A DNA stretch of 64,000 nt from a virus, in IMG/VR virus record IMGVR_UViG_3300042889_001272, positions 1-64,000 of that record; one strand, written 5' to 3'. Shown in pieces: positions 2,476 through 41,171 of the stretch; within the stretch, counting starts at the first letter, position 1, and every line of letters starts with the position of its first letter. The notes beneath the pieces are model-generated. The model had not been told where the DNA came from and did not search any database. It saw only the letters and a program-made list of their open reading frames with translations. Position numbers and translations under genes: made by a program.

Positions 2476-3021
2476 TTAAATAGTTTCTTCCCAAGGTCCA
2501 GGAAACAATCTTATTAAGATCATGATCCTAGTCTGATCACCATTATTGACAACTCTGTGCGGAGTTTTTACTCCCAATATGTATGGCTCATATGTTTCAG
2601 CTTCATATATTAGTTCACACTGGTCTTCGGTGTATCTAAAATATTGATGAGTCTTACCCTTATTGTTTACTTTGGCAATGGTATAATCAGAGTTTACTTT
2701 AAAAAAATTAATCCAAGTATTTTCACAGCCGATTATTGGTATATTTAAACTATGTTTAAAAGGACCACTGTCCATGTGATAAGTGCCGGCGTCTTTTCCA
2801 ACGGTTACGTTGACAGCAATCGAACCCACTGAATCGAACATTTTTTTACTTTTTAAAAAATCGCGTAGTGCGGCAACTTTGAGAAATATTTCTCTATTAT
2901 TTTCTATATAAGTTAATGTTGTTTTATCAAGTAAATATTCAGGTATTAATTTTAATACTTCTTGTTGTATCTCGTTGAGATTTTCAATGTGTACGGGTTT
3001 ATAAAAATCAGCAGTGTTCAT
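2476..3021 (-). CDS. 2OG-Fe(II) oxygenase-like protein (181 aa)
   Basis: A single jelly-roll-sized protein carrying the non-haem iron triad of 2-oxoglutarate dioxygenases: HMD at H82/D84, the distal histidine in TPHRV (H155) and a 2OG-binding-type arginine at about R165. It shares N-W and P-H-x-V signatures with the paralogues at 3587, 18359 and 20789. It is divergently transcribed from the next oxygenase gene, and each has its own late-type box in the 29-bp gap between them. Substrate unknown. Confidence 0.75.
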   Translation of the reverse strand: MNTADFYKPVHIENLNEIQQEVLKLIPEYLLDKTTLTYIENNREIFLKVAALRDFLKSKKMFDSVGSIAVNVTVGKDAGTYHMDSGPFKHSLNIPIIGCENTWINFFKVNSDYTIAKVNNKGKTHQYFRYTEDQCELIYEAETYEPYILGVKTPHRVVNNGDQTRIMILIRLFPGPWEETI

Positions 3022-3027
3022 AAAAAG

Positions 3028-3035
3028 TATTTATA
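3028..3035 (-). promoter_or_regulatory. T4-late-type box TATAAATA
   Basis: An exact TATAAATA on the minus strand, ending 7 nt before the ATG at 3021, back-to-back with the plus-strand box at 3038. Confidence 0.65.
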
Positions 3036-3037
3036 CC

Positions 3038-3045
3038 TATAAATA
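3038..3045 (+). promoter_or_regulatory. T4-late-type box TATAAATA
   Basis: An exact TATAAATA ending 6 nt before the ATG at 3051. Transcription from such a box would begin at or next to the start codon. Confidence 0.65.
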
Positions 3046-3050
3046 TAATT

Positions 3051-3590
3051 ATGCAATTTATCAAACTTAATAAAAAATTTGATGTTAGTAGTTTTACAGA
3101 AACATCACTGATCAACGAATATGCCATCAATGGCAAGGGCATTGGATTCTATAACATCGACAATTACAATAAAGAATTGATGCTTTCAGTTATACCAGAG
3201 AGATTTAGAAAAGATTTCTTTGCAAGAGAAATGAAAATAAATTATAACATTCCTCCTCATACAGATAGCTACGTGTATGCTACTATAAATTTTTATGTCA
3301 AAGCCGTTGATTGCCAAACAAATTTCTTTAAGAAAGTAGATGCTAGCCTTGGAGTTAAAATGACCACTCAGACTACTGGCAGGACATTTAAAGAAGAAAA
3401 TTTAGAACACGCTGGAAGTTTTGTAGCAGAATCTGGAGATGCTTGGTTATTGGATGTGTCTAGCCCACACAGCGTTAAGAATCTAAAATCTAGTACTGTT
3501 GACAGAGTTGCTCTGGTATTACAATCAAGTAACTATACCTTTGATCAAGTACACAGTATGTTACAAGAAACTGGTTACGTCGACGATTAG
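3051..3590 (+). CDS. 2OG-Fe(II) oxygenase-like protein (179 aa)
   Basis: The iron-binding motif is HTD at H70/D72, preceded by prolines (IPPHTD) as in prolyl-hydroxylase-like folds. The distal histidine lies in SSPHSV (H140) and a basic residue (R152) follows in DRVAL. No Shine-Dalgarno is present; a TATAAATA box sits six bases before the ATG. The 3' end overlaps the convergent oxygenase gene at 3587 by four bases. Probably cytoplasmic; substrate unknown. Confidence 0.75.
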   Translation: MQFIKLNKKFDVSSFTETSLINEYAINGKGIGFYNIDNYNKELMLSVIPERFRKDFFAREMKINYNIPPHTDSYVYATINFYVKAVDCQTNFFKKVDASLGVKMTTQTTGRTFKEENLEHAGSFVAESGDAWLLDVSSPHSVKNLKSSTVDRVALVLQSSNYTFDQVHSMLQETGYVDD

Positions 3591-4138
3591 ATTATAAATT
3601 CCTGCAATCTAAGTTTCGCTTCTGCCATAGTAAGTCTTTTTTTTGTTATTAAATCAACCAATACCACAGTAATGCATAAACGATCTTCTTTTGTAGTAGT
3701 TACATTATGCGGACATCCTGCTTGCACTAAACTAGGATAACTCAATGGGCTACTTTCCGCCAAGTCGACCATATCTGATCTCCATGGTATATATTCGGTA
3801 TTGATCGGTGTTTTTTCTACTACGGCGGGCGCGGAAGATGTTTCTTTTACTTTATACCAATGCATTAGACTGCCGTGGCCGCCGTATATAAAGTTTATTT
3901 TAACGTAATCACCGCCCATGCAGTCTGTGTGGATTCCTTGTTTACTTAGGTTGGCATACGGACGAGAATAAAATGATTCCATGTACCAAATTTGTATGCC
4001 AAGATTTTTTAAAAAATTAATAAAATCAGGATTTATATTTTCATGATCAATGGGAGTTTGATATTTCTTTTTCAACTCGAGATGATCTATGATCGCTGGA
4101 TTAATATTTAAATTTAAATATACGTAATAATCGGACAT
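3587..4138 (-). CDS. 2OG-Fe(II) oxygenase-like protein, NF..MxWY subgroup (183 aa)
   Basis: HTD at H70/D72, then the subgroup signature INF...LMHWY (81-95), PSLVQAGCPHNV with distal H144, and R153. Close relatives by these signatures lie at 18359, 18895 and 32813; the 32813 gene also shares the C-terminal LTMAE segment. A variant late box (ACTAAATA, 4144-4151) ends six bases before the ATG. Function unknown beyond the likely iron/2OG-dependent oxygenase chemistry. Confidence 0.78.
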   Translation of the reverse strand: MSDYYVYLNLNINPAIIDHLELKKKYQTPIDHENINPDFINFLKNLGIQIWYMESFYSRPYANLSKQGIHTDCMGGDYVKINFIYGGHGSLMHWYKVKETSSAPAVVEKTPINTEYIPWRSDMVDLAESSPLSYPSLVQAGCPHNVTTTKEDRLCITVVLVDLITKKRLTMAEAKLRLQEFII

Positions 4139-4143
4139 AACTA

Positions 4144-5345: not shown

Positions 5346-5948
5346 ATGCCCTCAGTATTTTTAACCAGCGACACGCACTTTGGACACACAGGTGTATGCC
5401 GTTTTACCCGTAACGACGGAGTTACAAAACTTCGACCATGGGACTCAGCAGAGGAAATGGACGAGGAAATGATTCGTCGTTGGAATGATACAGTTAGACC
5501 CAACGATAAAGTTTATCACTTGGGCGATGTTGTTATCAACCGTAAATCATTGAAAACTCTTGCTCGTCTAAACGGCGACAAAGTATTAATCCGCGGCAAC
5601 CACGACATCTTTCGAGATGACGAGTATCGAGAATACTTTCGAGAACTACGTGCTTACCATGTTATGAACGGGATGATCCTTAGCCATATTCCCGTACACA
5701 GTGACAGCTTGGGTCGTTTTGGCACTAACATTCACGGACACACCCACGCAAATCGTGTACGTAAGGCCCGTGGAGTCGATGCACGTACCGGAGAAATCTT
5801 ATACAGTGACGAACCGGATGTACGCTATCATTGTGTTTGTGTAGAGCAAACTGACTTTGCTCCTATTTTATTTGAAGATGTTATCAAACGTATTGAAGCA
5901 GAAGGCGGAAGTGTGGGATTTAAAAACGGAAATGGTTCTATAATGTGA
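5346..5948 (+). CDS. Calcineurin-like metallophosphoesterase (200 aa)
   Basis: The metal-binding motifs appear in order: SDTHFGH near the N-terminus, LGDVV, RGNHD, SHIPVH and HGHTH. This is a complete set for a two-metal phosphoesterase. The ribosome site AGGAG is good. It is the last gene of the phosphatase/kinase unit, and its end overlaps the convergent PP-loop gene by eleven bases. Likely substrates are phosphodiesters or nucleotides; which one cannot be told. Confidence 0.88.
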   Translation: MPSVFLTSDTHFGHTGVCRFTRNDGVTKLRPWDSAEEMDEEMIRRWNDTVRPNDKVYHLGDVVINRKSLKTLARLNGDKVLIRGNHDIFRDDEYREYFRELRAYHVMNGMILSHIPVHSDSLGRFGTNIHGHTHANRVRKARGVDARTGEILYSDEPDVRYHCVCVEQTDFAPILFEDVIKRIEAEGGSVGFKNGNGSIM

Positions 5949-7110
5949 TTGTAGTATTGCTAAAATCAGATATAGCACCAATCTTGTACACTAATCTAAA
6001 AACTTTAAATCCAGTGCGAGGACCATTTAAATAAATAGGATCTATTTCTTTTATAAAATTTCTAAAGTCACTTACAATAAGATCAAAAGTTCTAGTGTTA
6101 TTGTGCATTTTGTAAAACCAATCATCGTGTTCGCCTAAAAACATGCGTGTGGGCTTATGTCCTTGGAATACTTTTCGGTGAGTCTGAGGATATATGCATG
6201 GTATAATAGCTCTTTCATAGAAACTATGCCTGGTTCTAGATTGTTCCAAAGACTGTATTGGCAATCTAAAATCAAGCATCTTTTCTTTAGCAAAACGGTT
6301 CTCTGGCATGTCTATCCATTTGGCTAATACATGCGCTTGCTTCACTTGCATTTCTGGCATTTCTGGGGCAAAATAAAATAATACATTTTCTACATTTGGA
6401 TACTTGTCCTTGAATGGAGGGCGTTGCACATTTACTGTAAGATCAGACATCATCACATTGACAGTATTATCTGTATCGTAGAACAGATGCGGCTTATCAA
6501 TGCCATACACTATAGCAATCTTCTTACCTTGTTCAGCTAACTGTTTGATATGCAACTGTTTGTCTAAATCATATCTTGCTCCGCTACTAGGATGTATCCA
6601 TTCGCCGCATCTAAAAATCCAGTCATCTGTTTCATAATTTAGTAATGTTTCAAAATAGTCGTTGATGGTGATTTTTACATCAGGATGCTTGCTGTGAATT
6701 TCGTGCATCAATGGCATCTGTGCCAGCATTGTTTCACTCATTGTATTACCAGCACTGGTATCTTTGTTGGTTTCAGTCCACTGTGATAAGCCACTGATAG
6801 GAGCACTGGCTACTACTTCATCAACTAATATACCGTTGTTCAAAAAGCTCCATATCACATTGGTGCTATCACCACCACCACTGCACAGGATCACTACATA
6901 ATCATATTGATCCCTGATCTGCTGTGCTCTAAGTTTGTAATACTGATCGAGACTGAGTTCCGGTTCAGTAGTCCAATCAGTGCGGCTATATATCTCATCA
7001 TTAAAATGCCATTCTATTTCTTCTTTAGTTAGACTCGCGTCAAGCACGGCAGCTAATTTATCAGAAAATACTTTATTTCCTACGGTGTAATATCCGGTGT
7101 TTGTTTTCAT
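5938..7110 (-). CDS. PP-loop ATPase, asparagine-synthase-like (390 aa)
   Basis: The pyrophosphatase loop CSGGGDS (SGGGDS at 77-82) defines an N-type ATP-pyrophosphatase. Such enzymes adenylate a carboxylate or a base and then transfer nitrogen. There is no N-terminal glutaminase domain, so it is not a full asparagine synthetase. It is the largest of four PP-loop genes in this island. The ATG overlaps the TAG stop of the ATP-grasp gene, so the two are probably translated together. Possibly an amide ligase of an unknown pathway. Confidence 0.75.
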   Translation of the reverse strand: MKTNTGYYTVGNKVFSDKLAAVLDASLTKEEIEWHFNDEIYSRTDWTTEPELSLDQYYKLRAQQIRDQYDYVVILCSGGGDSTNVIWSFLNNGILVDEVVASAPISGLSQWTETNKDTSAGNTMSETMLAQMPLMHEIHSKHPDVKITINDYFETLLNYETDDWIFRCGEWIHPSSGARYDLDKQLHIKQLAEQGKKIAIVYGIDKPHLFYDTDNTVNVMMSDLTVNVQRPPFKDKYPNVENVLFYFAPEMPEMQVKQAHVLAKWIDMPENRFAKEKMLDFRLPIQSLEQSRTRHSFYERAIIPCIYPQTHRKVFQGHKPTRMFLGEHDDWFYKMHNNTRTFDLIVSDFRNFIKEIDPIYLNGPRTGFKVFRLVYKIGAISDFSNTTITL

Positions 7111-8378
7111 TCTAAGTAACCTATGTCTTTTCGGTAAGTAAAGTTGTACATTTCAATATTTTCTAAAAACTTGTAAATTCTATCACTTGCTTCCATTCTT
7201 GTTGGTGCAGAACTAGTTATGACACTATTTAAAAGTTTCCTATCTTTATTAAAACTTATATGTATGTCAGGCAATTCCGGCCATAATTGAGGATTGTGGT
7301 GCGGCTCCAACTCTGCAGATCCGTACATGGCCTGAATATTTACGATATTATGATAATCAGAGTTTACGATTCGTAGACATACGGCTTGCTGATCATTATT
7401 TGACACTGGATCTATTTTTGCGCCAGTTGCGGCTTGGTATAACATATTTGAAATACTACACTTGCTGTCAAATGTCATGGCAATTGATTGAAATTCAGGG
7501 TCGCCTGGTCGGACGTTAATTTCAATCACATATACTTTGCCTTCCAAATCCTCCATAATGCCCAGATACAGAATCCCCACATAAGGAGTACCTTGTGATT
7601 TTAAGTAATTTAAAATAGTATCCGCATACTGATGCACTATGGGGTTAATATTAACTGGGGAATAACAACCCATGCTTGCAGTGTTGCTACCTGTGTCGCC
7701 TTCTCCGAACTTTTTATAATCTCTTGCAGAACCGAGATACTCCCAAGAATTCTCATTGCACAGTATGTGATAGGAATACTCACGTTTCCCGGTTATGAAT
7801 TCTTCTACTAGAAAATGCTGATCCAAGAACTGGCCGAACCCTTTCATATACCTGTTCTGCCCAAAAGATTGCAAATTTTCAAATTCTTTATTCACGTTAT
7901 CGTCGGTTATGATGACAGTCTGTAATCCTGCACGCCAGTCTCTTTCAAATTTTAATACCCATGGTCTGGGTATATTAAAAAATACTTCGAACAGTTTACT
8001 TTTATTATATACTCTGGATTTTGCAGTTGGAATATTCAGCTTTTGAAGTAAAGTCTTGCCATGAGCTTTACTCCATTCTAAGAATGATAAATCATAGCTC
8101 GGAGAGCAAGAAGGAATATTTTTTTCTTTTAGGAAATTCTGAAGACGTTGATTTTGTAGATAATTTATAGTAGTCAACCACACCAAATCCACTGGTGTAG
8201 TAGTCAGAAGGTCTATGATTTCGTCCACTGATTTTAGATCCAATGTGGAGTATCTTAATGAAGGTTGTATTGCAGGATTCGCTGTAATATGATAGATATG
8301 TTCTACTTCGTTTTCTTCTAATAATTTTTTAGAAAAAAAGTGTACCCCTGCGTGTGATCCAAATATTGCAATTTTCAT
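7107..8378 (-). CDS. PurD-like ATP-grasp ligase (423 aa)
   Basis: The layout follows phosphoribosylamine-glycine ligase: an N-terminal Rossmann-like segment (IAIFGSHAG), an ATP-grasp core (WVLKFERDWRAG), the segment ARDYKKFGEGDTGSNT..MG, and the metal/ATP motif EINVRPGDPE. These match PurD hallmarks, and 423 aa is the family length. PurD joins glycine to phosphoribosylamine using ATP. Here it sits with PP-loop ligases rather than other purine genes, so a different amine/carboxylate ligation is possible. It is preceded by a perfect palindrome (8385-8416). Confidence 0.85.
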   Translation of the reverse strand: MKIAIFGSHAGVHFFSKKLLEENEVEHIYHITANPAIQPSLRYSTLDLKSVDEIIDLLTTTPVDLVWLTTINYLQNQRLQNFLKEKNIPSCSPSYDLSFLEWSKAHGKTLLQKLNIPTAKSRVYNKSKLFEVFFNIPRPWVLKFERDWRAGLQTVIITDDNVNKEFENLQSFGQNRYMKGFGQFLDQHFLVEEFITGKREYSYHILCNENSWEYLGSARDYKKFGEGDTGSNTASMGCYSPVNINPIVHQYADTILNYLKSQGTPYVGILYLGIMEDLEGKVYVIEINVRPGDPEFQSIAMTFDSKCSISNMLYQAATGAKIDPVSNNDQQAVCLRIVNSDYHNIVNIQAMYGSAELEPHHNPQLWPELPDIHISFNKDRKLLNSVITSSAPTRMEASDRIYKFLENIEMYNFTYRKDIGYLE

Positions 8379-8761: not shown

Positions 8762-9418
8762 TTATTTATCTAAGTACGTTCTATTTAGCATAGTATGATT
8801 GTGATCCGTAGGTCCCCAGTCGCCGTCTGGGTGAAAGGCAATAACGGTCATACTACTATCAGTAGTACAGAAACGATGTCTTTCTTGTTCAGTTAAACAA
8901 AAGCTAATGCCAGTAACAAGCTCGTCTTCCTTTAAGTTGCCACTATCGCCGTGATGACTAATACCTTTACCGTCTATGACACAGCCTAATCGGATGCTGG
9001 GATGAGTGTGATAAGACTGTGTGATGCCCGGCGGAAAGAACAATAGATTCAAACTAGCGTCTCCCAGCCTAGCAGGATATACCAGTAAACTATCACTACA
9101 ACCGTCAATATAAGTTAATCTGCCCTTGGATTCTACCCAGCCCATAGTATCTGGTACGATGTATCCTAGTCTAACGATTACAAATAGTTTGTCAACGACG
9201 TCGACACTAACAGAGTCTCTTACGCCTAATCCGAAATATTGCCCTTTTTCCAGTGTATGTTTTTTGCCATCAATTGTGATTGTGGCTGTGCCGTAGCTGT
9301 AACCATACACTGAGCAGAATTTACAGAAATCTGGGAACGTGAATTGCTGATTTTCAAACATGTAGCCAGCTGATGGGTACATACTATTGTACAATTCTAA
9401 TTTTTTTCCATCTATCAT
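8762..9418 (-). CDS. Cupin-type protein (218 aa)
   Basis: The second half contains a cupin-like metal site: SYHTHPSIRLGCVIDGKG has the HxH..G spacing of cupin motif 1, and a later ERHRF histidine fits motif 2. The first half (IDGKKHTLEKGQYF) reads as a degenerate first barrel. Cupins here could act as an isomerase, dioxygenase or small-ligand sensor. It lies in the PP-loop/ATP-grasp gene run on the minus strand. Confidence 0.7.
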   Translation of the reverse strand: MIDGKKLELYNSMYPSAGYMFENQQFTFPDFCKFCSVYGYSYGTATITIDGKKHTLEKGQYFGLGVRDSVSVDVVDKLFVIVRLGYIVPDTMGWVESKGRLTYIDGCSDSLLVYPARLGDASLNLLFFPPGITQSYHTHPSIRLGCVIDGKGISHHGDSGNLKEDELVTGISFCLTEQERHRFCTTDSSMTVIAFHPDGDWGPTDHNHTMLNRTYLDK

Positions 9419-9438: not shown

Positions 9439-10350
9439 TTAAACAATATTTAGTTCTAAAAACCTTTTTGTAACACCGGTCTGTGATTTAAGGTGTGCTA
9501 TTAATTCTTTCCACGGAATAAAACACTGACGTTCTTTACGTACAGTACGAACTTCTTTGTACAGCCAATCAATGTTTTCATAGCCACTGAACTTTGGGAA
9601 ATATACCAGATCTTCTCTCCAGTGTTTGGCATACAGCATAGGTTTGATATAATATTCATAGCGCAATACATCATTAATTTTCATGTTATATAACTTAAAT
9701 CCGTTGCCATCGTAATAAACCCAACTGTCTAAAAAGTAATGAAACAAGTCATCATCGATACTGCTGAGGAAATATTCACTGCTATCTCCGAACATGACAA
9801 TCTTACCAGTACGCTCTATTGCATTAAGCGCACGATATCTAGCAATCTCCGGATCATAATAACTTTGATACACATAGTGATTGCCATCTTTTTTATTGGT
9901 TATTAACCACGGATCGTGTAGCACTTGTATTATATCATAGTCCTTGGGTAATTCACTGACAAATATGTGTTGAATGCAATGATTGGCATGTGCATCTAGT
10001 TCGGGCTTCAATGCTTCTATTTCATCTCTGCGAGTGTTGGGATTTATGTTTACAACATTGGCAGTAAATCCCCACTTCTTTTCCAGCATCTTTAAGTTTT
10101 CGTATTCATTTTCGTTGAAGCCATCTAATCTAAGAAAGCTACATTCAAGTGGAATACCCTGCTTTAGAAAACTTACCAGTGCTATTTGACTGTCTAAACC
10201 AGAACTTAGACACAGCATTATTTTGCCGGGATTGTTCAGATAAATGTCACGAGCACGTCTGTCTGATTCTTCTTTTAAATTACCAGCGGGTCTAGTACAG
10301 CTGGTGTGTTCTACGTAGAACTTATTATTCTCATCAAAACCCCAATGCAT
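9439..10350 (-). CDS. PP-loop ATPase, asparagine-synthase-like (303 aa)
   Basis: The PP-loop reads SSGLDS (49-54) after a short N-terminal region. The family uses this loop to bind ATP pyrophosphate during substrate adenylation. No glutaminase domain and no QueC-type C-terminal cysteine cluster are present. It is two bases from the next PP-loop gene upstream, in the same orientation, so the pair is probably one transcript. Confidence 0.75.
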   Translation of the reverse strand: MHWGFDENNKFYVEHTSCTRPAGNLKEESDRRARDIYLNNPGKIMLCLSSGLDSQIALVSFLKQGIPLECSFLRLDGFNENEYENLKMLEKKWGFTANVVNINPNTRRDEIEALKPELDAHANHCIQHIFVSELPKDYDIIQVLHDPWLITNKKDGNHYVYQSYYDPEIARYRALNAIERTGKIVMFGDSSEYFLSSIDDDLFHYFLDSWVYYDGNGFKLYNMKINDVLRYEYYIKPMLYAKHWREDLVYFPKFSGYENIDWLYKEVRTVRKERQCFIPWKELIAHLKSQTGVTKRFLELNIV

Positions 10351-10352: not shown

Positions 10353-11375
10353 TTATCCTTGTATTGGTTGTTTAGTAAATCTGTAAACACCGTTGTCTTC
10401 GTAGATAAAGTCAAATGTATCTTTATAACGTAGCAATGCTGGCAAGCTAGGGTGCTTGGTTTTGTATTTAAAATATTGCAAGTCACCATCTACTTGATAG
10501 ATAAACTTCTTCATGATACCTTTATATTCGCCCCAGCTGGTTCCTTTGAAGTAATGACCTTCTTGTAGACTCCATTGTTGGAATGTATCTGTATTAAAGA
10601 AATGCTTTAAGTTTTTAATTAGTTGATTGCCCACTGCTTCGTTGTTGGCATGGCTTACTATGCGAAAGTTAACTGCCTGCCACTTTAAGTTAAAGTTCAA
10701 GTACCACAGCAAATCATGACAAGTAACCAATTCAACTGGGCTGGTTGAAATTTGTTGTTCTATAAATTCATATAGTTTTGGTTTTTCTTCTGTGGTTAAA
10801 TTTCTAGCCATCCAATCAACTGCCATTTGCAATGGCTTGTGAACAGTGCTAAAGTCATTGAAATAATCTACACAACTTTTCATAGTTAAACTGCCCACCA
10901 AGTTATCTGCCATTTCGCCTGTGATGATAACCTGATCCGGCTTGGGATCAGCAATAATCTTATCAGCTTGTACTACGCATGATATGAATCTATTTTTAAT
11001 AAATTTATTATAAAAGTTTGGATTTTCGCGGATACTGTCCATGTTCAATCCAATGGTCAATCTATTTTGTTTGTATAGTTCGTCGGCAATGCCAAGGTCA
11101 ACCATTAATGCAAAAATAAATGTACTGTCGATGCCGCCACTCCATAACACATTAACATGCATATTATGATCTGTTAATTCTTTAATTCTAGCAATGCTGG
11201 TTGCCATGAAGTCCGGACACGGTGTATCAACACTGGGCATGGGAAACATATTAACGTAATCGAAATTAGGCCAACGATTTGCGGTTCTGTCCAACACACT
11301 GATAAGTGGGTTGATTGTTTTATGAAAGACTTGTTTTTCTTTCAATGCTATGGGATGATAATAAACTAGATTCAT
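10353..11375 (-). CDS. PP-loop ATPase, asparagine-synthase-like (340 aa)
   Basis: LWSGGIDSTF contains the canonical PP-loop (SGGIDS at 79-84). A later DNLVGS segment fits the second nucleotide-contacting region of asparagine-synthase domains. It is a stand-alone synthetase domain. Its ATG overlaps the end of the 180-aa gene by four bases (translational coupling). Substrate unknown; adjacent PP-loop paralogues suggest either several ligation steps or a hetero-oligomer. Confidence 0.78.
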   Translation of the reverse strand: MNLVYYHPIALKEKQVFHKTINPLISVLDRTANRWPNFDYVNMFPMPSVDTPCPDFMATSIARIKELTDHNMHVNVLWSGGIDSTFIFALMVDLGIADELYKQNRLTIGLNMDSIRENPNFYNKFIKNRFISCVVQADKIIADPKPDQVIITGEMADNLVGSLTMKSCVDYFNDFSTVHKPLQMAVDWMARNLTTEEKPKLYEFIEQQISTSPVELVTCHDLLWYLNFNLKWQAVNFRIVSHANNEAVGNQLIKNLKHFFNTDTFQQWSLQEGHYFKGTSWGEYKGIMKKFIYQVDGDLQYFKYKTKHPSLPALLRYKDTFDFIYEDNGVYRFTKQPIQG

Positions 11376-11914
11376 AATAAAATATTTGTAAAGAACAAGC
11401 GTAACATGAGTTCACGAGCATTGACGAAATCATCTGCATTTTTTGCATCGAGTATTGCGGATATAACCTGCGTTTTAATGTTATTTAAATTTTGCATTAA
11501 CTGCATTTTATTCTCGTATTGAATGCCTGCATCAATGGGTGCAGTTCCTGTAATAACACCCTGTGAAACTAGGTATTCATGTAATTCAATAATTGTAAAA
11601 TTAGAATTGCTTATTCCTAGATTCTCCATGCTGGCTTCTAATCTATAATATAACTCTGCAAAGAATTTTAATCTATGCCCTATAATTATAGATTCCCGGT
11701 TGACCTCGGCTGGACTTGTTGCATTAGTATTAACAGTGACACTGGTCCAACTATTTGTTTTTAACTGCATAGGGCAGGATATTGGCGTGTCTATGGTAAA
11801 TGTTCTAAGAGTATACCAAGGACGGTCTTGAATCGCCCAGTGCATTACTTCTTTAATCGAATGCTCGCCTATTACCCAATTATTACTGTCAAGTATTACT
11901 GTTCGCCATTGCAT
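11372..11914 (-). CDS. Hypothetical protein (180 aa)
   Basis: No recognised motif. The N-terminal half is predicted mixed alpha/beta with several tryptophans. The C-terminal half is helical (YENKMQLMQNLNNIKTQV), possibly a coiled coil. It overlaps the desaturase gene upstream by 26 bases and the PP-loop gene downstream by four, so it is embedded in the operon and probably acts in the same process. Confidence 0.7.
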   Translation of the reverse strand: MQWRTVILDSNNWVIGEHSIKEVMHWAIQDRPWYTLRTFTIDTPISCPMQLKTNSWTSVTVNTNATSPAEVNRESIIIGHRLKFFAELYYRLEASMENLGISNSNFTIIELHEYLVSQGVITGTAPIDAGIQYENKMQLMQNLNNIKTQVISAILDAKNADDFVNARELMLRLFFTNILL

Positions 11915-12734
11915 CTTTTCTTGCCTTAAATATTTTTTCTTTGCTGGCCCTAGTTGCTATTAATGGAACAAATAATAAACTAGGATCAAATTCATCTTTG
12001 CGTCCACTGACACTAGTGCCGAAATCATAGGAACTTGCTTTGGCATGATGGTTATTATGCCATGCTTGCCCCCATACAATTTTAGCCATAATCGATCTAT
12101 TGTTGCTGTCATCCTTGGTTTCGAAGTTTCTATACCCCTGTCCTTTTAAATGACATAACACATTTACTGCTGATTCTTGGTGCAGACTATACACTGCTGG
12201 AATTATAAACATAAACAATAATATTTGCCAATCTATTAGTCCGATGATTGCATAACTAATAAAGATAATTTTAATGTAGTTGTGGGCAAAAAACAAATGC
12301 ATGGGATCTTTGAGTAAATCAATGGCATACTTGGGATTAAAATAATTCCCCCAATCATGCAACCAAAAGTGATAAGCATACAATTTTCCTTTGTTGGGCG
12401 TGTGTGCGTCTTTTTCAGTGTCACTGAATCTATGATGACTGCCTCTATGAATTGCGGCCCAACCCAATGGACTTCCTTGCAAGCACAAACTTGCTGTCCA
12501 CAATGCAATGGGTTTGATTCCTGGTCGCAATTCCAAGGCACGATGGCTGACAATACGATGCAATGTCACAGCACTTCCGAACCCAGCAAGTAGAATCCAG
12601 CCCGCAAATAATAATAGTATTTGTTTTAATCCAAAATCAAAGTAAAAAGGAAATACAAATACGCCCAGCAATGCAACAATATGTGCAGGGTAAAGGACGT
12701 AGTAAAGGAAATTGTTAATTTTTGGTGTATTCAT
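11889..12734 (-). CDS. Membrane fatty-acyl desaturase-like protein (281 aa)
   Basis: Three histidine boxes of the acyl-CoA/acyl-lipid desaturase family are intact: HRIVSH, HRGSHH and HNNHH. Four hydrophobic segments flank them. These diiron enzymes insert a double bond into an acyl chain using O2 and reducing power, at the inner membrane. It is one of three such genes in the window (others at 35514 and 36290). It lies inside the oxygenase/PP-loop operon, between the 180-aa protein and an acetyltransferase-like gene. Confidence 0.88.
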   Translation of the reverse strand: MNTPKINNFLYYVLYPAHIVALLGVFVFPFYFDFGLKQILLLFAGWILLAGFGSAVTLHRIVSHRALELRPGIKPIALWTASLCLQGSPLGWAAIHRGSHHRFSDTEKDAHTPNKGKLYAYHFWLHDWGNYFNPKYAIDLLKDPMHLFFAHNYIKIIFISYAIIGLIDWQILLFMFIIPAVYSLHQESAVNVLCHLKGQGYRNFETKDDSNNRSIMAKIVWGQAWHNNHHAKASSYDFGTSVSGRKDEFDPSLLFVPLIATRASKEKIFKARKDAMANSNT

Positions 12735-12735: not shown

Positions 12736-13350
12736 TTAAAGGAAATCTATGTCTCGCTCATCAAACTCAACTGAGCCCTCTGATGTACACAAACTCTTCG
12801 ACATGTACATACTGATATTTATATCGTAAGGAAACAATTTTCCGCCACTAAACTGTAAGTGATCCAACCATTTTGGCATTGTATTTGCTGCCACTCTGGC
12901 ATAAACATAGTGATGATATTTTTCTCTGGCACCAGTGAAAAGTTTTTGCCATGCATCAAACTTTTCTAATTTGCTGACAACAAACCATTGATAAAATCCA
13001 CTTTTTTCCTGATAATCAATAGCAAATTTTAAAAGTTCTTTTATAACCCTGATGCTATTGCCACCGCGATGTGCAGTCACAATAAAACTAAAAATCCAAG
13101 AAGGACTGTTGTCTAAACAACGTAGTCCTATAATAGCAATTAATTTTGAATCTTCATCAAAATATCCAAATGCTCTCATTTTATCAGAACCATAGACATT
13201 CTGCGGTAGCACAAAATATTTAAACACCTTTGAGTTTGTATTGTCTTCGAAAATGCCAGAAGCAGTATTAGTCATAGCAAACTTTTCTTCTGCCATGGCT
13301 TCAATCATACTCAAGTCTTCTTGTAATAATCTTCTTATATATATTGACAC
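12736..13350 (-). CDS. GNAT-like acetyltransferase (204 aa)
   Basis: The N-terminal IRRLLQEDLSMIEAMAEEKF and the central strand FSFIVTAHRGGNSIRVIKEL resemble GNAT motifs, in which the R-G-x-x-I turn contacts acetyl-CoA. Confidence is limited because the pyrophosphate loop is not a perfect R/Q-x-x-G-x-G/A. The start is GTG at 13350, overlapping the PP-loop gene upstream by 16 bases. Substrate unknown. Confidence 0.6.
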   Translation of the reverse strand: MSIYIRRLLQEDLSMIEAMAEEKFAMTNTASGIFEDNTNSKVFKYFVLPQNVYGSDKMRAFGYFDEDSKLIAIIGLRCLDNSPSWIFSFIVTAHRGGNSIRVIKELLKFAIDYQEKSGFYQWFVVSKLEKFDAWQKLFTGAREKYHHYVYARVAANTMPKWLDHLQFSGGKLFPYDINISMYMSKSLCTSEGSVEFDERDIDFL

Positions 13351-14258
13351 ACTGTTCCTTGATTTGTTAAAATATCTATCATATCATTGTAAGAAATATA
13401 AGCATTTCTTGGTTTGAATTGTAATGTTTGTTGTATCAATTCTGAATTCTTTTGATTTAAACCAGGTATATGATCACCGCTGACTGTTTTAACAAACTTG
13501 AAAGTATTTCCATCAAATAAGTTTGTAAAACCTCCTTGATAATAAATTAAATTCTTTAAACTGTTTAAAGAAATTTTTCCGCTGGTTTGTTTTTTCACTA
13601 ATTCCCGTATTACGGGAAGAGTTAAAAAACTATATATTAATTCTGGACTGTATGAGAAGAAATTGTTAATAACTTTATTCTCATTAAAACTATTAAACCG
13701 CTCAGGCCAAAAATCAAAATCTTCATTGCGAATATAGCTCCAAGATAAGTCTGGATTCACATCTCTTCGAAGATTTACTTTATCAACTAATAACACATCC
13801 TCATGTAGTTGCTCCATATAATATGCATGTAAAGTTTGAACAAAACTGTACGTTTGATATTTTTTTGCAGTATCTATCATGTGCTCGTTTACAAACGTTT
13901 CAAAATTCACGTCGACTAATTTAGGTATAATATTATATTTTTTACACTGTTTTACTGCAATCTCGGTGTCATGGGAATTTAATCTAATGGGAAATTTTAA
14001 AATATATACATTTGGAGTAATGCCGGCTTCAATAAACGAGCGTAAACAAATTTGACTTTCCCATCCGCCCGACAATGCAATGTATATGTTGGGATATTTT
14101 AAATGTATTTCTTTGGCAGCAATTATACATTCTTCTTTCAAAGTCAATTCCTGTCTAGTTTTCGAGCTAATCTTAAGGTTGAGAATCTCAAGAGCTGTTG
14201 TCCTAAATTTATTACCAACATCATCGCCATACCAATAGTCTAAATTTTTCATTATCAT
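13335..14258 (-). CDS. PP-loop ATPase-like protein with altered loop (307 aa)
   Basis: The loop reads ALSGGWES (SGGWES at 63-68): the usual Asp of SGGxDS is Glu. This is conservative and may still bind Mg-ATP, but it is unusual. Overall size and layout match the 303-aa paralogue at 9439. An ATG at 14252 is an alternative start. A minus-strand ATTAAATA near 14261-14268 may be a promoter. Confidence 0.7.
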   Translation of the reverse strand: MIMKNLDYWYGDDVGNKFRTTALEILNLKISSKTRQELTLKEECIIAAKEIHLKYPNIYIALSGGWESQICLRSFIEAGITPNVYILKFPIRLNSHDTEIAVKQCKKYNIIPKLVDVNFETFVNEHMIDTAKKYQTYSFVQTLHAYYMEQLHEDVLLVDKVNLRRDVNPDLSWSYIRNEDFDFWPERFNSFNENKVINNFFSYSPELIYSFLTLPVIRELVKKQTSGKISLNSLKNLIYYQGGFTNLFDGNTFKFVKTVSGDHIPGLNQKNSELIQQTLQFKPRNAYISYNDMIDILTNQGTVCQYI

Positions 14259-17566: not shown

Positions 17567-17581
17567 AATGTGTGCCGTGTT

Positions 17582-17589: not shown

Positions 17590-17594
17590 CAAAT

Positions 17595-32248: not shown

Positions 32249-32818
32249 ATGAATATCAGTCTACGTAAAGCCAGTGTATTGCAGAACAGCATCAATGATG
32301 CTGTCAAAGGCATTGACCTCAAAGGTCAAGTTACACTAACAGAATTCCATGCTCCGATCATGGAAATTGACAAGGCCACAACTGTGTTTAAAACTAATTT
32401 GAATCGTCGCGATTCTTTGGTTAAAGCACTGTATGACATCCGTAAGCAAGTCAGTGCAGTTAACAGTCGTGTGGGCATAGATGACAAACTCACAGAGATT
32501 GCTGGTCTTGAAAAGCAAATTCAGAACTATACAGAGTTGTCTGGCTTTGCAGTTCGCGAACAAGAAGCAGTTGTGCTGGGCAAGTTGGATAAGATTAAAA
32601 ATCGTAAAGAAGAAGGTCGCAGTATCTATGGTTACGAAAGCACAGTAGCCACTAGTGTGTTCACAGAAGAAGACATCAAGGGCTTTAAAGTTTTTGTAAA
32701 TCTAGCCAAGAAAGCCAAACAACGTCTTCAAGACGAAGTTCTAGAATTGAATGTGCGTACTGACATCGGTCTAAGTGTAGACACAGTTCAAACATTGAAG
32801 TCAGAAGAATTATTATAA
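32249..32818 (+). CDS. Hypothetical phage protein, helical (189 aa)
   Basis: Predicted mainly alpha-helical with heptad-like hydrophobic spacing (residues 55-100 and 145-175), so possibly a coiled-coil oligomer. No signal peptide and no known motif. It has its own sigma-70 promoter and a good ribosome site. The 3' end overlaps the convergent oxygenase gene by six bases. Confidence 0.7.
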   Translation: MNISLRKASVLQNSINDAVKGIDLKGQVTLTEFHAPIMEIDKATTVFKTNLNRRDSLVKALYDIRKQVSAVNSRVGIDDKLTEIAGLEKQIQNYTELSGFAVREQEAVVLGKLDKIKNRKEEGRSIYGYESTVATSVFTEEDIKGFKVFVNLAKKAKQRLQDEVLELNVRTDIGLSVDTVQTLKSEELL

Positions 32819-33346
32819 GTATTGTTTGAACATTTCAATTGATTCTGCCATAGTTAATCTAGTATTATCTTGTTTTTTTAATACTAAACTTAGGCAGTAT
32901 CTAGGTTCTTCAAAATTATGTATGTTATGAGGAATACCAACTTGAACTATACTAGGAAAATTTACTGGCTGTTTATCGATTAAGTCAACTTGGTCTATCT
33001 TGTAATCAATATAAGAACTATTGAGTGCGTTGAGTTCTGCACTATTCGATATATTAGGTTTTTGTTTCCACCAATACATTAAACTGTTTTTGCCGCCGAA
33101 TACATAATTGAGTTTGATATAATCTCCGCCTGTGTCATCGAGATGTATTGTACTAAAACGAAAAGGAAGATTGTAAAATAATTCTACTCGGCCAATGGTT
33201 AGATTTAAAGTTTTTAAAAATAAAATTAAATCATTGTTAATATCGTCAATTGATATTTTAATATGATTGTGTGTGCCATATGAGTTTATATTTAAATCTT
33301 CTCTCAGAGGATTTATGTCTAGATTTATATTAAGACTGTTAATCAT
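32813..33346 (-). CDS. 2OG-Fe(II) oxygenase-like protein, NY..MYWW subgroup (177 aa)
   Basis: STIHLDDTGGDYIKLNYVFGG gives H68/D70 and the subgroup signature with LMYWW; PSIVQVGIPHNI gives the distal histidine and EPRYCLSLVL the arginine. It is the closest relative of the 183-aa protein at 3587 (shared GDYxKxNxxxGG and LTMAE). The start at 33346 was chosen because a GATAAATA box ends six bases upstream; the longer frame would run into tRNA-fMet. Confidence 0.8.
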   Translation of the reverse strand: MINSLNINLDINPLREDLNINSYGTHNHIKISIDDINNDLILFLKTLNLTIGRVELFYNLPFRFSTIHLDDTGGDYIKLNYVFGGKNSLMYWWKQKPNISNSAELNALNSSYIDYKIDQVDLIDKQPVNFPSIVQVGIPHNIHNFEEPRYCLSLVLKKQDNTRLTMAESIEMFKQYL

Positions 33347-33351
33347 AAATA

Positions 33352-33359
33352 TATTTATC
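33352..33359 (-). promoter_or_regulatory. Late-type box GATAAATA overlapping tRNA-fMet
   Basis: Minus-strand GATAAATA ending 6 nt before the ATG at 33346. Its outer base is the first base of the divergent initiator tRNA gene. Confidence 0.6.
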
Positions 33360-33434
33360 GCGGGGTACGTCAGTTGGTAGACTATCAGGCTCATAACCTG
33401 GAAGACGGAGGTTCGAGTCCTTCCCCCGCAACCA
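33359..33434 (+). tRNA. Initiator tRNA-fMet (CAU)
   Basis: The acceptor CGCGGGG faces CCCCGCA, leaving the C1-A72 mismatch that marks bacterial initiator tRNAs for formylation. The anticodon loop is CTCATAA; the discriminator is A and the CCA is encoded. The anticodon stem (TCAGG/CCTGG) keeps only two of the three consecutive G-C pairs typical of initiators. Confidence 0.9.
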
Positions 33435-35513: not shown

Positions 35514-36293
35514 ATGTCCTACAAACGAATCATCAATAATGCTCTTGCGTCTAACACGCAATATCTACCCTACGTACAACTCAGCGCCACGGCACTGGTT
35601 CTACTCTATGCATTCCTTTTACCACAAGTTGGTTTACTGTGGTTACTGAGTGTGCTGATGTATGTGGGCATAGGCGGCCTCGGCATCAGCATAGGCTTTC
35701 ATAGATTATTAACACATAAAAGTTTTAAGACTAGTAAATTCTGGGAATACTTTTGTGCAACATGGGGTGCCCTTGCATTCACAGGCAGTGCAATCGGTTG
35801 GGTGGGTATGCACAGGGATCATCACAAGTACAGCGACAAGCCTGGTGACCCACACAGTCCCATGGTCAGTGGTCCCAAGATGTTGGTAGCTGCCTATGAC
35901 TATGAGCCCAACAAGTGGAAAATACGACATTTGATTTTTGACAAGTATCATATCTTTATGCACAAGTGGTACTTTGGTTTGCTATTATTATGGACAATAT
36001 TCTGGGCTGTTATAGATCCTGTGTTGGCCATGCACGTTGTTGTCATCCCTGCGGTGTTCAGTGTTTGGAGCAGTACAACCAGTAACTACATGAACCACCG
36101 TTGGGGTTATAAGAATTTTGAAACCAGCGACAACAGTCGAAATCTTTGGATCAATGCTATATTCACATTTGGCGAAGGCTGGCACAACAATCACCATGCT
36201 CGACCAGGCAACTATGACTTTGGCAGTGGCACCAGTGGCAAGTGGTGGGAATTTGATCCCGCCGCCAGAGTCATTGAATTAATTAGACGATGA
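35514..36293 (+). CDS. Membrane fatty-acyl desaturase-like protein (259 aa)
   Basis: Three histidine boxes are intact: HRLLTH, HRDHH and HNNHH, with hydrophobic pairs of membrane helices on both sides of the first and before the third. These are the diiron ligands of acyl desaturases acting in the inner membrane. It is the first gene of a plus-strand run of five ending with rpoZ. A leaderless-type late box precedes it. The next gene is a second desaturase, overlapping by four bases. Confidence 0.88.
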   Translation: MSYKRIINNALASNTQYLPYVQLSATALVLLYAFLLPQVGLLWLLSVLMYVGIGGLGISIGFHRLLTHKSFKTSKFWEYFCATWGALAFTGSAIGWVGMHRDHHKYSDKPGDPHSPMVSGPKMLVAAYDYEPNKWKIRHLIFDKYHIFMHKWYFGLLLLWTIFWAVIDPVLAMHVVVIPAVFSVWSSTTSNYMNHRWGYKNFETSDNSRNLWINAIFTFGEGWHNNHHARPGNYDFGSGTSGKWWEFDPAARVIELIRR

Positions 36294-37045
36294 TATTTGG
36301 ATCCACAAGTAGAAATATAAATCTACTAACTATTTTTGTTTTTATTAGCAGTGTAGTTGGATTGTTTTTTGTTGATTACACATTGAACAACATACTAATC
36401 ATGTTAACAAGTTTTTATGTTTTGAACATCCTGGGAGTATGGATGACATTTCATAGATATTATAGTCATAAAAGTTTTGCACTAAATCCCGTGCTTAAAT
36501 GGCTGTTTTCTATTATTGCTTTATTAACAGGTCGCGGTAGTATCTTGGGCTGGGTTTACCTACATAGACTACATCACGCATACAGTGACCGAGACAAGGA
36601 CCCTCATAGCCCTCATAATTTAGGATATAAATTATTTGGCTTTGGACACATGAAACAGCAAGAGGGTGAAATGAAGATATTCTTGGTTAAAGAATTAATG
36701 ACACCGGCTCAATTGTTTATACATAAATGGTACATGCTGTTGTTAATACCCGTGCTTATTATTTTTGCAGTAATAGATTTACAATTATTTTATTGGGCTT
36801 GGCTAGTGCCTGCAATGTTAATACAGTTCAGCACCAGCAACTTTAATTACTTTGGCCACACGCATGGCTATAGGAATTTTGAAACAAAAGATCATAGTAG
36901 AAATAACGCATGGCTTTGGCCCATTATACTGGGCGAAGCGTGGCACAATAATCATCACGGCGACGCAAAGAATCCCAGCACAACATATAAATTCTGGGAA
37001 ATAGATCCTTTGACATGGGTGATTAAACTAGTATGTACAAAGTAA
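36290..37045 (+). CDS. Membrane fatty-acyl desaturase-like protein (251 aa)
   Basis: The histidine boxes are HRYYSH, HRLHH and HNNHH. N-terminal and central hydrophobic segments would form four membrane helices. It is a paralogue of the genes at 35514 and 11889 and overlaps the former by ATGA coupling. Two adjacent desaturases suggest consecutive or different-position unsaturation of host lipid chains, or of an acyl group made by the island. Confidence 0.87.
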   Translation: MIFGSTSRNINLLTIFVFISSVVGLFFVDYTLNNILIMLTSFYVLNILGVWMTFHRYYSHKSFALNPVLKWLFSIIALLTGRGSILGWVYLHRLHHAYSDRDKDPHSPHNLGYKLFGFGHMKQQEGEMKIFLVKELMTPAQLFIHKWYMLLLIPVLIIFAVIDLQLFYWAWLVPAMLIQFSTSNFNYFGHTHGYRNFETKDHSRNNAWLWPIILGEAWHNNHHGDAKNPSTTYKFWEIDPLTWVIKLVCTK

Positions 37046-38446: not shown

Positions 38447-38478
38447 TCAAATTTATCTTCTGATGACTTGTGCATCTA

Positions 38479-38486
38479 TATAAATA
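38479..38486 (+). promoter_or_regulatory. T4-late-type box TATAAATA
   Basis: An exact match ending 5 nt before the ATG at 38491. It lies inside the longer reading frame from 38470 and supports the shorter protein. Confidence 0.65.
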
Positions 38487-38490
38487 TTGT

Positions 38491-39189
38491 ATGAGATCAT
38501 CGGAAGATAAAGAATTACTAGTGTCTAGATTCACTGATACTATCTATGTAGAAGAATTTCTCCAGCCTGAAGAAATCCAGTATCTAGTCCAACTGTTTGA
38601 TAACTCAAACGACAAAATTTATAAGAACACCGGACCCGTGACTTCTAATTCTATTATGAAAGATTCTATTTTGGAATCTATAGTAGAAAGACTCAGACCT
38701 TTAATTGGTGATTTTAAGATTTATTCTGCGGCATTCTTTAATGTAAAAACGCCGCATATCATACACAATGATGATGAGAAGTCATTTCCTTTGACTTATA
38801 AAGCAATTACATTGCCATTGAAATTAGAGTATTCTGTGGTCTCTACAGAGCTACCCAGTCTGTGTATCTTTGATCAGTATTACTTGGAAGGCCCGAGTAA
38901 ATTTTTTAATGGCTCCAATGATATTCCCACATATTATAATCAACAAATCTACGAATACTCCGAAGTACAAAACAAATCTTCAACCGGTATCAGGGTAGAT
39001 GACATACAGAGATATCTAACACATATAAAACCAAATTGGTTACATGGACTTAGTTTAAATTCAATACATGCATGGAAGCCAGGATCTGCAATTATATTCG
39101 ATGCATTAAAACTTCATTGTGCCAGCGACTTTAGACAGCACAGCATTATCAGCAAACTGGGCATTAGTATTTTTACATACACTGATTAA
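38491..39189 (+). CDS. 2OG-Fe(II) oxygenase-like protein (232 aa)
   Basis: PHIIHNDDEK gives H92/D94, and AIIFDALKLHCASDFR a distal histidine near the C-terminus. A longer insertion (about 115-175) separates the halves. The fold is less certain than for the smaller paralogues. Start chosen at 38491 (late box five bases upstream) rather than 38470. It is convergent with the next oxygenase gene. Confidence 0.68.
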   Translation: MRSSEDKELLVSRFTDTIYVEEFLQPEEIQYLVQLFDNSNDKIYKNTGPVTSNSIMKDSILESIVERLRPLIGDFKIYSAAFFNVKTPHIIHNDDEKSFPLTYKAITLPLKLEYSVVSTELPSLCIFDQYYLEGPSKFFNGSNDIPTYYNQQIYEYSEVQNKSSTGIRVDDIQRYLTHIKPNWLHGLSLNSIHAWKPGSAIIFDALKLHCASDFRQHSIISKLGISIFTYTD

Positions 39190-39191
39190 TT

Positions 39192-39794
39192 TTACAAAAA
39201 TAAAATTTTACTGTCGTTGACATTTTTTGCGGCATCTTCATAGTCTTGGAATTCTTTTATGTAGGTAAGGTCAAACAAAAGACTTGTTCTTTTACCTACA
39301 TAATTATCCACTGCATGTATAGCCGAATTATTAATCAGATACCATTTGTTAAGATCGAATCTATATCGATTTATTTCTGTCAATTCACTTTTTTCAAACA
39401 TTCTAGCAGCCACGGTATTATTAATATCCTTTTGTTTGTAAAATACAGTATCAGCCGCGCCTTCTACTACATAGATTATACTCATCTTTCTAAAGGTATC
39501 TGTATGTGGCGGCAGTTCGTTGATACTTCGTTGCAGTGTTATATATTCTAAAAATTTTCTATTAATTTTATGACCATGAAAAATCTCATCAAGGAAATTC
39601 ATATGCTCTGGCCATTTCTGCAATTGATACGATCCGGCCGTTTCAACTAAAAAATCATCCTGAACCATACTTTTGCCCTGTTCTATTCTTTTGAACCTTT
39701 TTCCATAATGCTTGTACTGTTCATAATGCTTGATTATTTTTTCAGAGACTTCTATCCCCAATGGTGGCCAGTTTAACTCAATGGCATTGTTCAT
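39192..39794 (-). CDS. 2OG-Fe(II) oxygenase-like protein (200 aa)
   Basis: ELPPHTDTF gives H97/D99, WYLINNSAIHAVDN gives the distal histidine, and GKRTSLLFDL the arginine. The INNSAIH signature links it to the GNxYR subgroup at 16-17.5 kb. The ATG at 39794 is preferred over a TTG at 39803. The upstream oxygenase gene ends six bases before it, so both are read from one promoter. Confidence 0.75.
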   Translation of the reverse strand: MNNAIELNWPPLGIEVSEKIIKHYEQYKHYGKRFKRIEQGKSMVQDDFLVETAGSYQLQKWPEHMNFLDEIFHGHKINRKFLEYITLQRSINELPPHTDTFRKMSIIYVVEGAADTVFYKQKDINNTVAARMFEKSELTEINRYRFDLNKWYLINNSAIHAVDNYVGKRTSLLFDLTYIKEFQDYEDAAKNVNDSKILFL

Positions 39795-39799
39795 ATAAA

Positions 39800-40516
39800 T
39801 CAATGCCCGTGTTTAAGATTTGCAATCAATTTAGATACATTGTCAGTGGTAAACGGTACGTTGAGAATCAGATGTATGCTGTTGTCAACCCAACTAATTG
39901 TTCTATGTGTTCGTCTAGTGTTGATGTAATAAGCTCGGCCTTCTTCAATTTGGAGTTTTGTATCGGCACCGATTATCCAGTCATAGTCATAAGTCCCACA
40001 ATGTTTTAAAAACACTGCGATTCTAAATGTTTCTCTTGGTATTTCAGGATGGTCTCTGTGTGGAGTAAAATATCCGCCTATGTTACTTTTTACTAAAAAT
40101 GTTCTGCCCAATGGAGAGAATGTATCCAATAAAGGATGTAAACTGGGACAATTTTGATAAACTGCTGTGTGATGAGAAAACTCTTTCTCAAATACTTTTC
40201 TGCCGGCAGCATGACTGGCCTGTGCTTGGCTGGGATTATCCTGATGTGTTTTGCCTTCGAGGTTAGTAATTGCTAGACCTTTTCTATTATTAAGTCTATC
40301 TGCTCTTGGCAAATAATCTACCCAGTCGTTGTCAAATTTTGCAATTTCACGATTGAACTGCCCCGGATCTATAAAAAAGTTTAAAGATTCAAAGTCTCCC
40401 AGTGTTAATAATGCCAATTCATCTGTGACAGTTTCTTGGCTAATTGCGGCGCTGTTATATTTGGTAGGTCTTCTCACAGCATGTTTTTTACCTACAATAA
40501 TATTTTTGTCATTCAT
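39800..40516 (-). CDS. Aspartyl/asparaginyl hydroxylase-like 2OG oxygenase (238 aa)
   Basis: GGYFTPHRDHPE gives H153/D155, YYINTRRTHRTISW gives the distal histidine, and the C-terminal strand HLILNVPF ends the barrel. The N-terminal 100 residues form an extra domain. A late-type box AATAAATT ends six bases before the ATG. It is the first of a two-gene minus-strand unit. Confidence 0.75.
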   Translation of the reverse strand: MNDKNIIVGKKHAVRRPTKYNSAAISQETVTDELALLTLGDFESLNFFIDPGQFNREIAKFDNDWVDYLPRADRLNNRKGLAITNLEGKTHQDNPSQAQASHAAGRKVFEKEFSHHTAVYQNCPSLHPLLDTFSPLGRTFLVKSNIGGYFTPHRDHPEIPRETFRIAVFLKHCGTYDYDWIIGADTKLQIEEGRAYYINTRRTHRTISWVDNSIHLILNVPFTTDNVSKLIANLKHGH

Positions 40517-40521
40517 ATTAT

Positions 40522-40529
40522 AATTTATT
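40522..40529 (-). promoter_or_regulatory. Late-type box AATAAATT
   Basis: Minus strand, ending 6 nt before the ATG at 40516. It differs from TATAAATA at the first and last positions. Confidence 0.4.
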
Positions 40530-40642
40530 ATCTCTATTCAGAATACAAGATACACATTACGATAAATCAATGTCAATCTCACCGATACCGCCTGCAAAAG
40601 CCTGTTATTGCGATAAACGACATTGGAGATTCGGCTACCTTG

Positions 40643-40650
40643 AATAAATA
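40643..40650 (+). promoter_or_regulatory. Late-type box AATAAATA
   Basis: A 7/8 match to TATAAATA ending 6 nt before the ATG at 40656. Confidence 0.6.
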
Positions 40651-40655
40651 TCAGT

Positions 40656-41171
40656 ATGCATATACAGTTTAAATCAATTTACCCTAAATTCAAAGAAGTA
40701 TTGGATCAATGTATATATCTAGGCAAAGAATACGCTGATTGGCCGAATAACGAAGAAGGCCAGTTAGCTATTCAAACAGATGATCCAAATATAGATAACT
40801 GGACTTCTGGAATAGGAAAAAGTGTTGCAAAAACTCCCGAGTGGGAGCAACAATTTAGATATATTCAACCAAGTTTAATTGGCACGCCTGTAGATAGATA
40901 TATCAAATGGCTGGGTATTCCCGTTTATCGAACAAGAATTATGTTATCTAAATCTAAATCTTGTTACAGTGTTCATCGTGATTACAGTCCAAGATTGCAT
41001 CTCCCGTTGATAACTAATAAGCAATGCAATTTTTTAATTACAGATCCCATACAGTTTTTTCATTTGCCAGCCGATGGCAGAACAACTTGGGTAAACACAA
41101 CCATGCCCCATACTTTCATGAATGGCAGTTTAGAAAATAGATTACATCTAGTAATGATAACAAAGGAATAA
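40656..41171 (+). CDS. Aspartyl/asparaginyl beta-hydroxylase-family oxygenase (171 aa)
   Basis: This is the clearest PF05118-type member: [16 protein letters not shown] (H107/D109), then [14 protein letters not shown] with the distal histidine, and NRLHLVMI with the 2OG-binding arginine. Family members hydroxylate Asp/Asn side chains in proteins or small molecules. It has a leaderless-type late box and lies one base before the A-type Fe-S carrier gene. Confidence 0.85.

Follow-up and report, generated by a model that had tools for sequence, protein, structure and literature searches.

Marine T4-like phages are known to carry many small oxygenases of the double-stranded beta-helix (DSBH) fold per phage, some of them in tandem, in the Pfam family PF13640 (2OG-FeII_Oxy_3), and the 2-oxoglutarate (2OG)-Fe(II) oxygenases of cyanophages have been tabulated (PMC3037559). 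PF13640 matched nine proteins in P-SSM2, nine in HTVC008M, and six in S-SM1, with some of these matches below the cut-off. Pelagimyophages, which are also T4-like, carry large non-syntenic, hypervariable host-recognition islands with radical SAM cassettes (PMC7029224). Here we describe an array of oxygenase-like genes in the first 64,000 bases (the window) of the 235,561-base IMG/VR virus record IMGVR_UViG_3300042889_001272, referred to as G000. The T4-type portal protein of this record finds its best matches among isolates (∼50% identity) in large T4-like phages, for example Sinorhizobium phage Phosso and Pseudomonas phage PA5oct, and by its sequence G000 is a large T4-like phage. In contrast to the marine phages, G000 has no PF13640 match; the core family described below is absent from P-SSM2, HTVC008M, and S-SM1; and most of the 23 genes of G000 lie within or next to an exchangeable block. 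The pelagimyophage islands differ as well: they diverge gradually in the tail-fibre region and oxygenases are unmentioned, whereas in the G000 lineage a whole block is replaced between phosphoesterase and oxygenase genes. Given the PF13640 counts, the abundance of oxygenases in T4-like phages is already known; G000 differs in which family is involved, in how many genes there are, and in their exchangeable setting. Together, these data suggest that some lytic phages carry swappable pathways to make or chemically alter a small molecule.

Comparisons were made with relatives (among them G001, G005, G006, G007, G014, G016, and L040), all of them metagenomic contigs, often fragments, with mechanical gene calls. 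The collection scans for relatives were pattern-based, so that distant relatives are missed. The sister phage of G000, G001, is IMGVR_UViG_3300027772_000009 (111,576 bases).

A divergent family of oxygenase-like genes

By protein reading and motif scan, 22 genes at positions 2,476 to 41,171 carry an HxD/E motif plus a distal histidine, and a further relative lacks this triad. These are the 22 genes and one degenerate copy that a first-pass annotation of the bare sequence had listed, and 18 of the 23 fall between 2.5 and 28 kb, where it had placed most copies. Genes are named below by their first coordinate. An arginine follows the distal histidine at +9 to +13 in 20 of the 22 triad genes (the C-terminal arginine of 14865 was counted by eye); this position is unfilled in 38470, where an arginine stands at +6, and in 39800. 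Among the open reading frames (ORFs) of 150 to 320 amino acids in this region, 23 of 41 contain H-x-D-(40-115)-H-(7-14)-R, compared with a mean of 5.1 and a maximum of 13 in 500 residue shuffles and with 10 of 72 ORFs elsewhere in the genome (Fisher p = 4e-6). Two of the 23 motif-positive ORFs, a GNAT and a desaturase, are chance matches.

Eleven genes form a core family, in which H70, D72, N82, H144, and R153 (g3587 numbering) are invariant in alignment A2. Eight of them lie on the minus strand (2476-3021, 3587-4138, 19650-20228, 20230-20799, 20789-21382, 21389-21976, 26284-26910, and 32813-33394); the plus-strand members are 18326-18898, 18895-19653, and 23475-24185. The subgroup signature described in the first-pass annotation, taken together with the arginine (HxD, N, M-x-W, P-H-x-V, R), is borne out by these 11 members; in 2476 the triad reads HMD82...H155. 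Iterative profile searches seeded with single sequences join 13 to 17 of the genes, linking to the core 3051-3590 (plus strand; HTD70...H140) and 39192-39803 (minus strand; HTD100...H163; blastp to 3051, E 5e-4). A census with family profiles counted 23 genes in G000, all inside the window, although any sequence that helped to build a profile necessarily matches that profile.

The remaining genes are more heterogeneous. The HxD...H...R pattern is common to the window genes and Asp_Arg_Hydrox (PF05118), the family of AspH and L-proline cis-4-hydroxylase, but most window members score below the Pfam cut-off. Three reach it: 27334-27987 (minus strand; PF05118 E 2e-17, L-proline cis-4-hydroxylase E 2e-4, 94% identity to G001), 16930-17553 (minus; HTD102...H154), and 40656-41171 (plus; HRD107...H152). 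The only other gene at or above a Pfam cut-off is the TauD-like 14865-15761 (minus; PF02668 E 1.7e-16); the other genes tested score below. The minus-strand gene 16349-16930 (HTD93...H146) matches 16930 by blastp (E 2e-22), and 25661-26287 (minus; HVD130...H179) is placed by a single alignment, A6, in a second family with invariant H, D, N, and H. The least-supported genes are 17568-18359 (plus; HKD169...H235; no Pfam match), which has the motif and one orthologue (G007, 74% identity); 38470-39189 (plus; HND99...H216), which has a G001 orthologue; and 39800-40516 (minus; HRD153...H204), which lacks the arginine in the expected place and is matched by the iterative 27334 profile. PHROGs recognized 1 of 20 oxygenase-like proteins tested (27334, weakly), and most of the 23 are invisible to both Pfam and PHROGs. 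Comparing profiles with each other, without secondary structure, lacked the power to unite the singleton families. Outside the window, G000 has one protein each of the standard oxygenase families PhyH (134,665) and PF05118 (150,096).

The core family is absent from all seven isolate genomes searched, which besides the three marine phages comprise PA5oct, Phosso, Atu_ph07, and Vibrio phage 2.275.O. A tblastn search of isolate phages with one core member and one oxygenase from a cassette of another type (type C, below) gave no match, and the A2 profile gave only a chance match among Protein Data Bank (PDB) sequences. Cellular relatives of three core members were not found in a pattern-based search, which is a weak negative.

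An AlphaFold2 model of core member 3587, built from an alignment of 35 family members, was a confident DSBH (predicted local distance difference test [pLDDT], 92.9; predicted TM-score, 0.88). The model is mostly beta, with the triad residues on or close to strands. Foldseek comparison with the PDB returned cupins and 2OG oxygenases (including ABH2, AlkB, YcfD, NO66, and proline hydroxylase) at low TM-scores of 0.25 to 0.46; among viral models, uncharacterized Caudovirales proteins ranked highest (TM 0.92 and 0.87), above annotated phage 2OG oxygenases. With this model and these neighbors, the predicted fold class of the core family is well supported, and the neighbors give no pointer to a substrate. 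Both the predicted fold and the shared signature, on which the first-pass annotation had staked its claim, thus hold for the core family. Outside the core, the model of 25661 was of low confidence (pLDDT, 45). By motif and model, these proteins would use Fe(II) and 2OG.

The first-pass annotation had raised the prospect of a rapidly diversifying family, and a joint tree gives no support to rapid expansion within G000. This tree has 56 rows, drawn from the core and two linked families; the 13 rows of G000 are scattered over 13 different positions, most often with an orthologue from another phage as nearest neighbor. By this scatter, the family diversified before these phages separated, with each genome sampling it. 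A recent burst of duplication within the genome is ruled out by the core tree, in which paralogs sit on separate old branches common to other phages. Ratios of nonsynonymous to synonymous substitution (dN/dS) for orthologue pairs of G000 and G001 range from 0.07 (3051) to 0.34, with 2476 at 0.09; these values indicate purifying selection on the genes that have orthologues and rule out pseudogene decay for them. The triad-less relative of 16349 and 16930, at 15751-16359 (minus strand), has a G007 orthologue (45% identity) that is also without the same metal residues. Since the loss is common to both, it is old, and 15751 is probably a retained non-catalytic protein, a pseudoenzyme.

Replacement of a gene block and its cassette types

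G001 aligns to positions 330 to 61,053 of G000 in segments that are 81 to 96% identical, mostly 92 to 96% (flanks, about 93%). However, positions 5,957 to 27,333 of G000 are without a counterpart in G001, in which 13.3 kb of different sequence takes their place, with clean boundaries at gene ends. The exchangeable block (cassette type A) spans 5945-27333, and 18 of the 23 genes lie within it or next to it. Its conserved left flank is a phosphoesterase-like gene (5346-5948, plus strand; 90% nucleotide identity to G001) whose orthologue also lies beside the block in G007 and G014, and its right flank is the oxygenase-like gene 27334. The G001 block (type B) holds ∼10 oxygenase-like genes different from those of G000, together with a desaturase, a GDSL hydrolase, and an acyl carrier protein. 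In G007, a more distant relative, the same slot is occupied by a G000-type block, collinear with that of G000 and with radical SAM proteins 77 to 85% identical. Type B blocks are also present in G006 and G014, the G014 copy lying between the same phosphoesterase and the orthologue of 32249. Because the close relative G001 differs in block type while the distant G007 shares it, and because G006 and G014 are of the G001 type, these sequence comparisons indicate that the block moves independently of the phage backbone. The first-pass annotation had proposed a dedicated modification programme clustered with ligases and radical SAM genes: such genes are indeed co-located and recur in other phages, but the exchange of the whole block had been missed.

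Type A combines PP-loop enzymes, GNATs, a desaturase, and B12-radical SAM proteins, many of these companion genes being named from motifs or sub-threshold matches. The minus strand encodes two PP-loop ATP pyrophosphatase-like proteins (5938-7110, motif SGGGDS, no Pfam match; 10353-11375, motif SGGIDS, weak PHROG QueC match) and two related PP-loop-like proteins (9439-10350, G007 orthologue 72% identical; 13335-14258, motif SGGWES). On the same strand are a PurD-like ATP-grasp ligase (7107-8378; PF01071 E 1.8e-26, TIGR00877 below cut-off), a cupin protein (8762-9418; PF07883 E 2.1e-6), a GNAT-like N-acyltransferase (12736-13350; PF13420 E 6.5e-4, below cut-off), and a GNAT-like protein (14264-14863; PF13508 E 0.005, below cut-off). 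A membrane fatty-acid desaturase-like protein (11889-12734, minus; motifs including HNNHH, DesA family below cut-off) has two paralogs assigned by motifs outside the block, at 35514-36293 and 36290-37045 (both plus). The radical SAM proteins are at 22001-23446 (minus; B12-binding; PF02310, PF04055, CxxxCxxC) and 24180-25664 (minus; B12-type; 50% identity to 22001). An AdoMet decarboxylase-like gene at 26975-27337 (plus; PF02675 E 1.3e-14) is also found in G007 and in type C.

In the type B block of G014, a core-family domain lies inside a 468-amino-acid protein. A pyridoxal phosphate-enzyme reading of the 272- and 468-amino-acid type B proteins was dropped, as neither Pfam nor NCBIfam gave a match and the PDB gave nothing useful.

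The third type, C, was first met in L040 and G005. Its order is desaturase, oxygenases, ketoacyl synthase (PF00109/PF02801), AdoMet decarboxylase (PF02675, as matched by its window homologue), amidinotransferase, oxygenases, and usually a class III aminotransferase (PF00202), which stands before or after the cassette in most long contigs. Two scans found the synthase in 17 contigs and the amidinotransferase in 19, with 16 in common and 20 viral contigs in total. Gene order is conserved, and contigs of sufficient length have 3 to 6 oxygenases before the synthase and 3 to 6 after the amidinotransferase. Two type C contigs encode a T4 portal protein (nearest relative, Methylophilales phage Melnitz, 61%) and are therefore phages. 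PDB relatives of the amidinotransferase are HsvA (E 5e-21), StrB1, SxtG, and AGAT. Bacterial HsvA-type genes are part of the pathway to a small molecule, phevamine A (PMC13123061). Type C has a homologue of the amidinotransferases of such pathways (HsvA, StrB1, SxtG), adjoining AdoMet decarboxylase, which suggests guanidine and polyamine chemistry; unlike in those pathways, however, the type C copy sits among phage oxygenases, and the window's own cassette has none. As looked for after the first pass, then, the same cluster (type A) occurs in G007, and oxygenase arrays elsewhere lie beside acyl-chain, polyamine-type, and guanidine-type enzymes. In combining putative scaffold-forming and tailoring enzymes that are co-located and recurrent, type C (order conserved in 20 contigs) and type A (collinear in two phages) resemble natural-product gene clusters. 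No report of such cassettes was found in the open-access literature. In G016, a TET/JBP oxygenase (G016:45368-45847, E 2e-25) is encoded ∼37 kb from a type C cassette.

Possible roles of the cassettes

We give about an even chance to the hypothesis that the arrayed oxygenases serve as tailoring enzymes in exchangeable cassettes by which phages make or modify small molecules. Under this hypothesis, ligase- and acyltransferase-like enzymes (PP-loop, ATP-grasp, GNAT) would build a scaffold containing amine, amide, or acyl groups; in other cassettes, an acyl carrier protein, or a ketoacyl synthase with an amidinotransferase and AdoMet decarboxylase, would supply the scaffold step. The many 2OG/Fe(II) oxygenases, the desaturase, and the B12-radical SAM enzymes would then oxidize or methylate the scaffold. 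Among the phages of the window's family, entire cassettes replace one another at a single fixed position in the genome, which changing selection on the chemical outcome would be expected to produce. This hypothesis is based directly on which gene families are present, the fold predicted for the core, the recurrence of the cassettes, the block replacement, and purifying selection, from which we infer a shared pathway and its order, catalysis, a small-molecule substrate or product, and a benefit to the phage. More tentatively, and with somewhat less confidence than in the hypothesis itself, lytic T4-like phages of aquatic bacteria may hold a pool of interchangeable cassettes, mostly of divergent oxygenases, that make phage-specific small molecules during infection. 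If so, some virulent phages would encode multi-step tailoring chemistry exchanged as blocks, beyond single auxiliary enzymes; they would be an untapped source of oxygenases and possibly of new metabolites; and the long-open puzzle of abundant 2OG oxygenases in T4-like phages would become directly testable.

Several observations weigh against the small-molecule hypothesis. A conserved region outside the block, from 32.8 to 41.2 kb, holds five of the 23 genes. The gene sets differ by cassette type, and a single pathway logic may therefore fail to account for every type; the ketoacyl synthase and amidinotransferase were found in type C, whereas the window's block has neither. The GNAT, desaturase, and PP-loop assignments are below curated cut-offs, and solved structures match the 3587 model at low TM-scores. 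Proteins, nucleic acids, and lipids are also possible substrates of DSBH enzymes.

PP-loop, ATP-grasp, GNAT, and radical SAM genes accompany phage base-modification loci, which favors a role in DNA hypermodification, in which oxygenases, ligase-like enzymes, and radical SAM enzymes build complex genome-protecting bases and cassettes are swapped under restriction pressure. We consider this unlikely: whole-cassette swapping fits such an arms race and one relative, G016, has a TET/JBP gene, but that gene is distant from the cassette, the family (PF12851) has no match in G000, G001, G005, G006, G007, or G014, and desaturases, acyl carrier protein, and ketoacyl synthase fit poorly. A search for a 5-hmdU kinase, made without a positive control, was negative. 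Remodelling of the host lipids or envelope, by hydroxylating or desaturating acyl chains of membrane lipids or lipid A and thereby altering the surface or sparing phosphorus, seems to us equally improbable. LpxO and OlsC are related hydroxylases of acyl chains, three window genes reach PF05118, and the window's three desaturases and the acyl carrier proteins of these phages point the same way; however, this role leaves the PP-loop, ATP-grasp, and amidinotransferase genes and many divergent oxygenases unexplained, and no glycerolipid enzymes were recognized in the block.

Two further explanations are less probable still. Some DSBH enzymes hydroxylate ribosomes or proteins, YcfD and NO66 are among the fold neighbors of 3587, and the window contains 20 tRNA genes, so the oxygenases could instead act on tRNA, on ribosomes, or on proteins of the host or the phage; scaffold-type enzymes and whole-cassette replacement would, however, be unexpected for action on conserved macromolecules. 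Alternatively, hypervariable slots like those of other T4-like phages could have gathered unlinked accessory genes that share no pathway. The pelagimyophage islands with radical SAM genes (PMC7029224) and the PF13640 matches of P-SSM2 and HTVC008M are precedents for such gathering, which we nonetheless rate as a slim prospect, given the fixed order of type C over 20 contigs, the collinearity of type A in G000 and G007, and the core-family domain within the 468-amino-acid G014 protein.

Neighboring genes

Positions 1441-2391 encode a radical SAM protein (PF04055 E 9e-12). Its match to the PADLOC viperin (pVip) model, at 56 bits, may reflect only general radical SAM similarity; PADLOC returned nothing beyond radical SAM and viperin-model similarities. 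In and just past 41173-63413 are IscA-like, ferredoxin-like, SufB-like, and glutaredoxin-like proteins, with adjoining SufC- and SufS-like starts, all named by eye. By their predicted functions, these Fe-S assembly genes could possibly feed Fe-S clusters to the radical SAM enzymes. A subtilisin-like serine protease, an unusual phage cargo, was recognized by eye at 48723-50378. A second large cluster lies at 143 to 184 kb of G000 (L009, L010), with SPASM radical SAM, carbamoyltransferase, nucleotidyltransferase-like, and glycosyltransferase-like genes.

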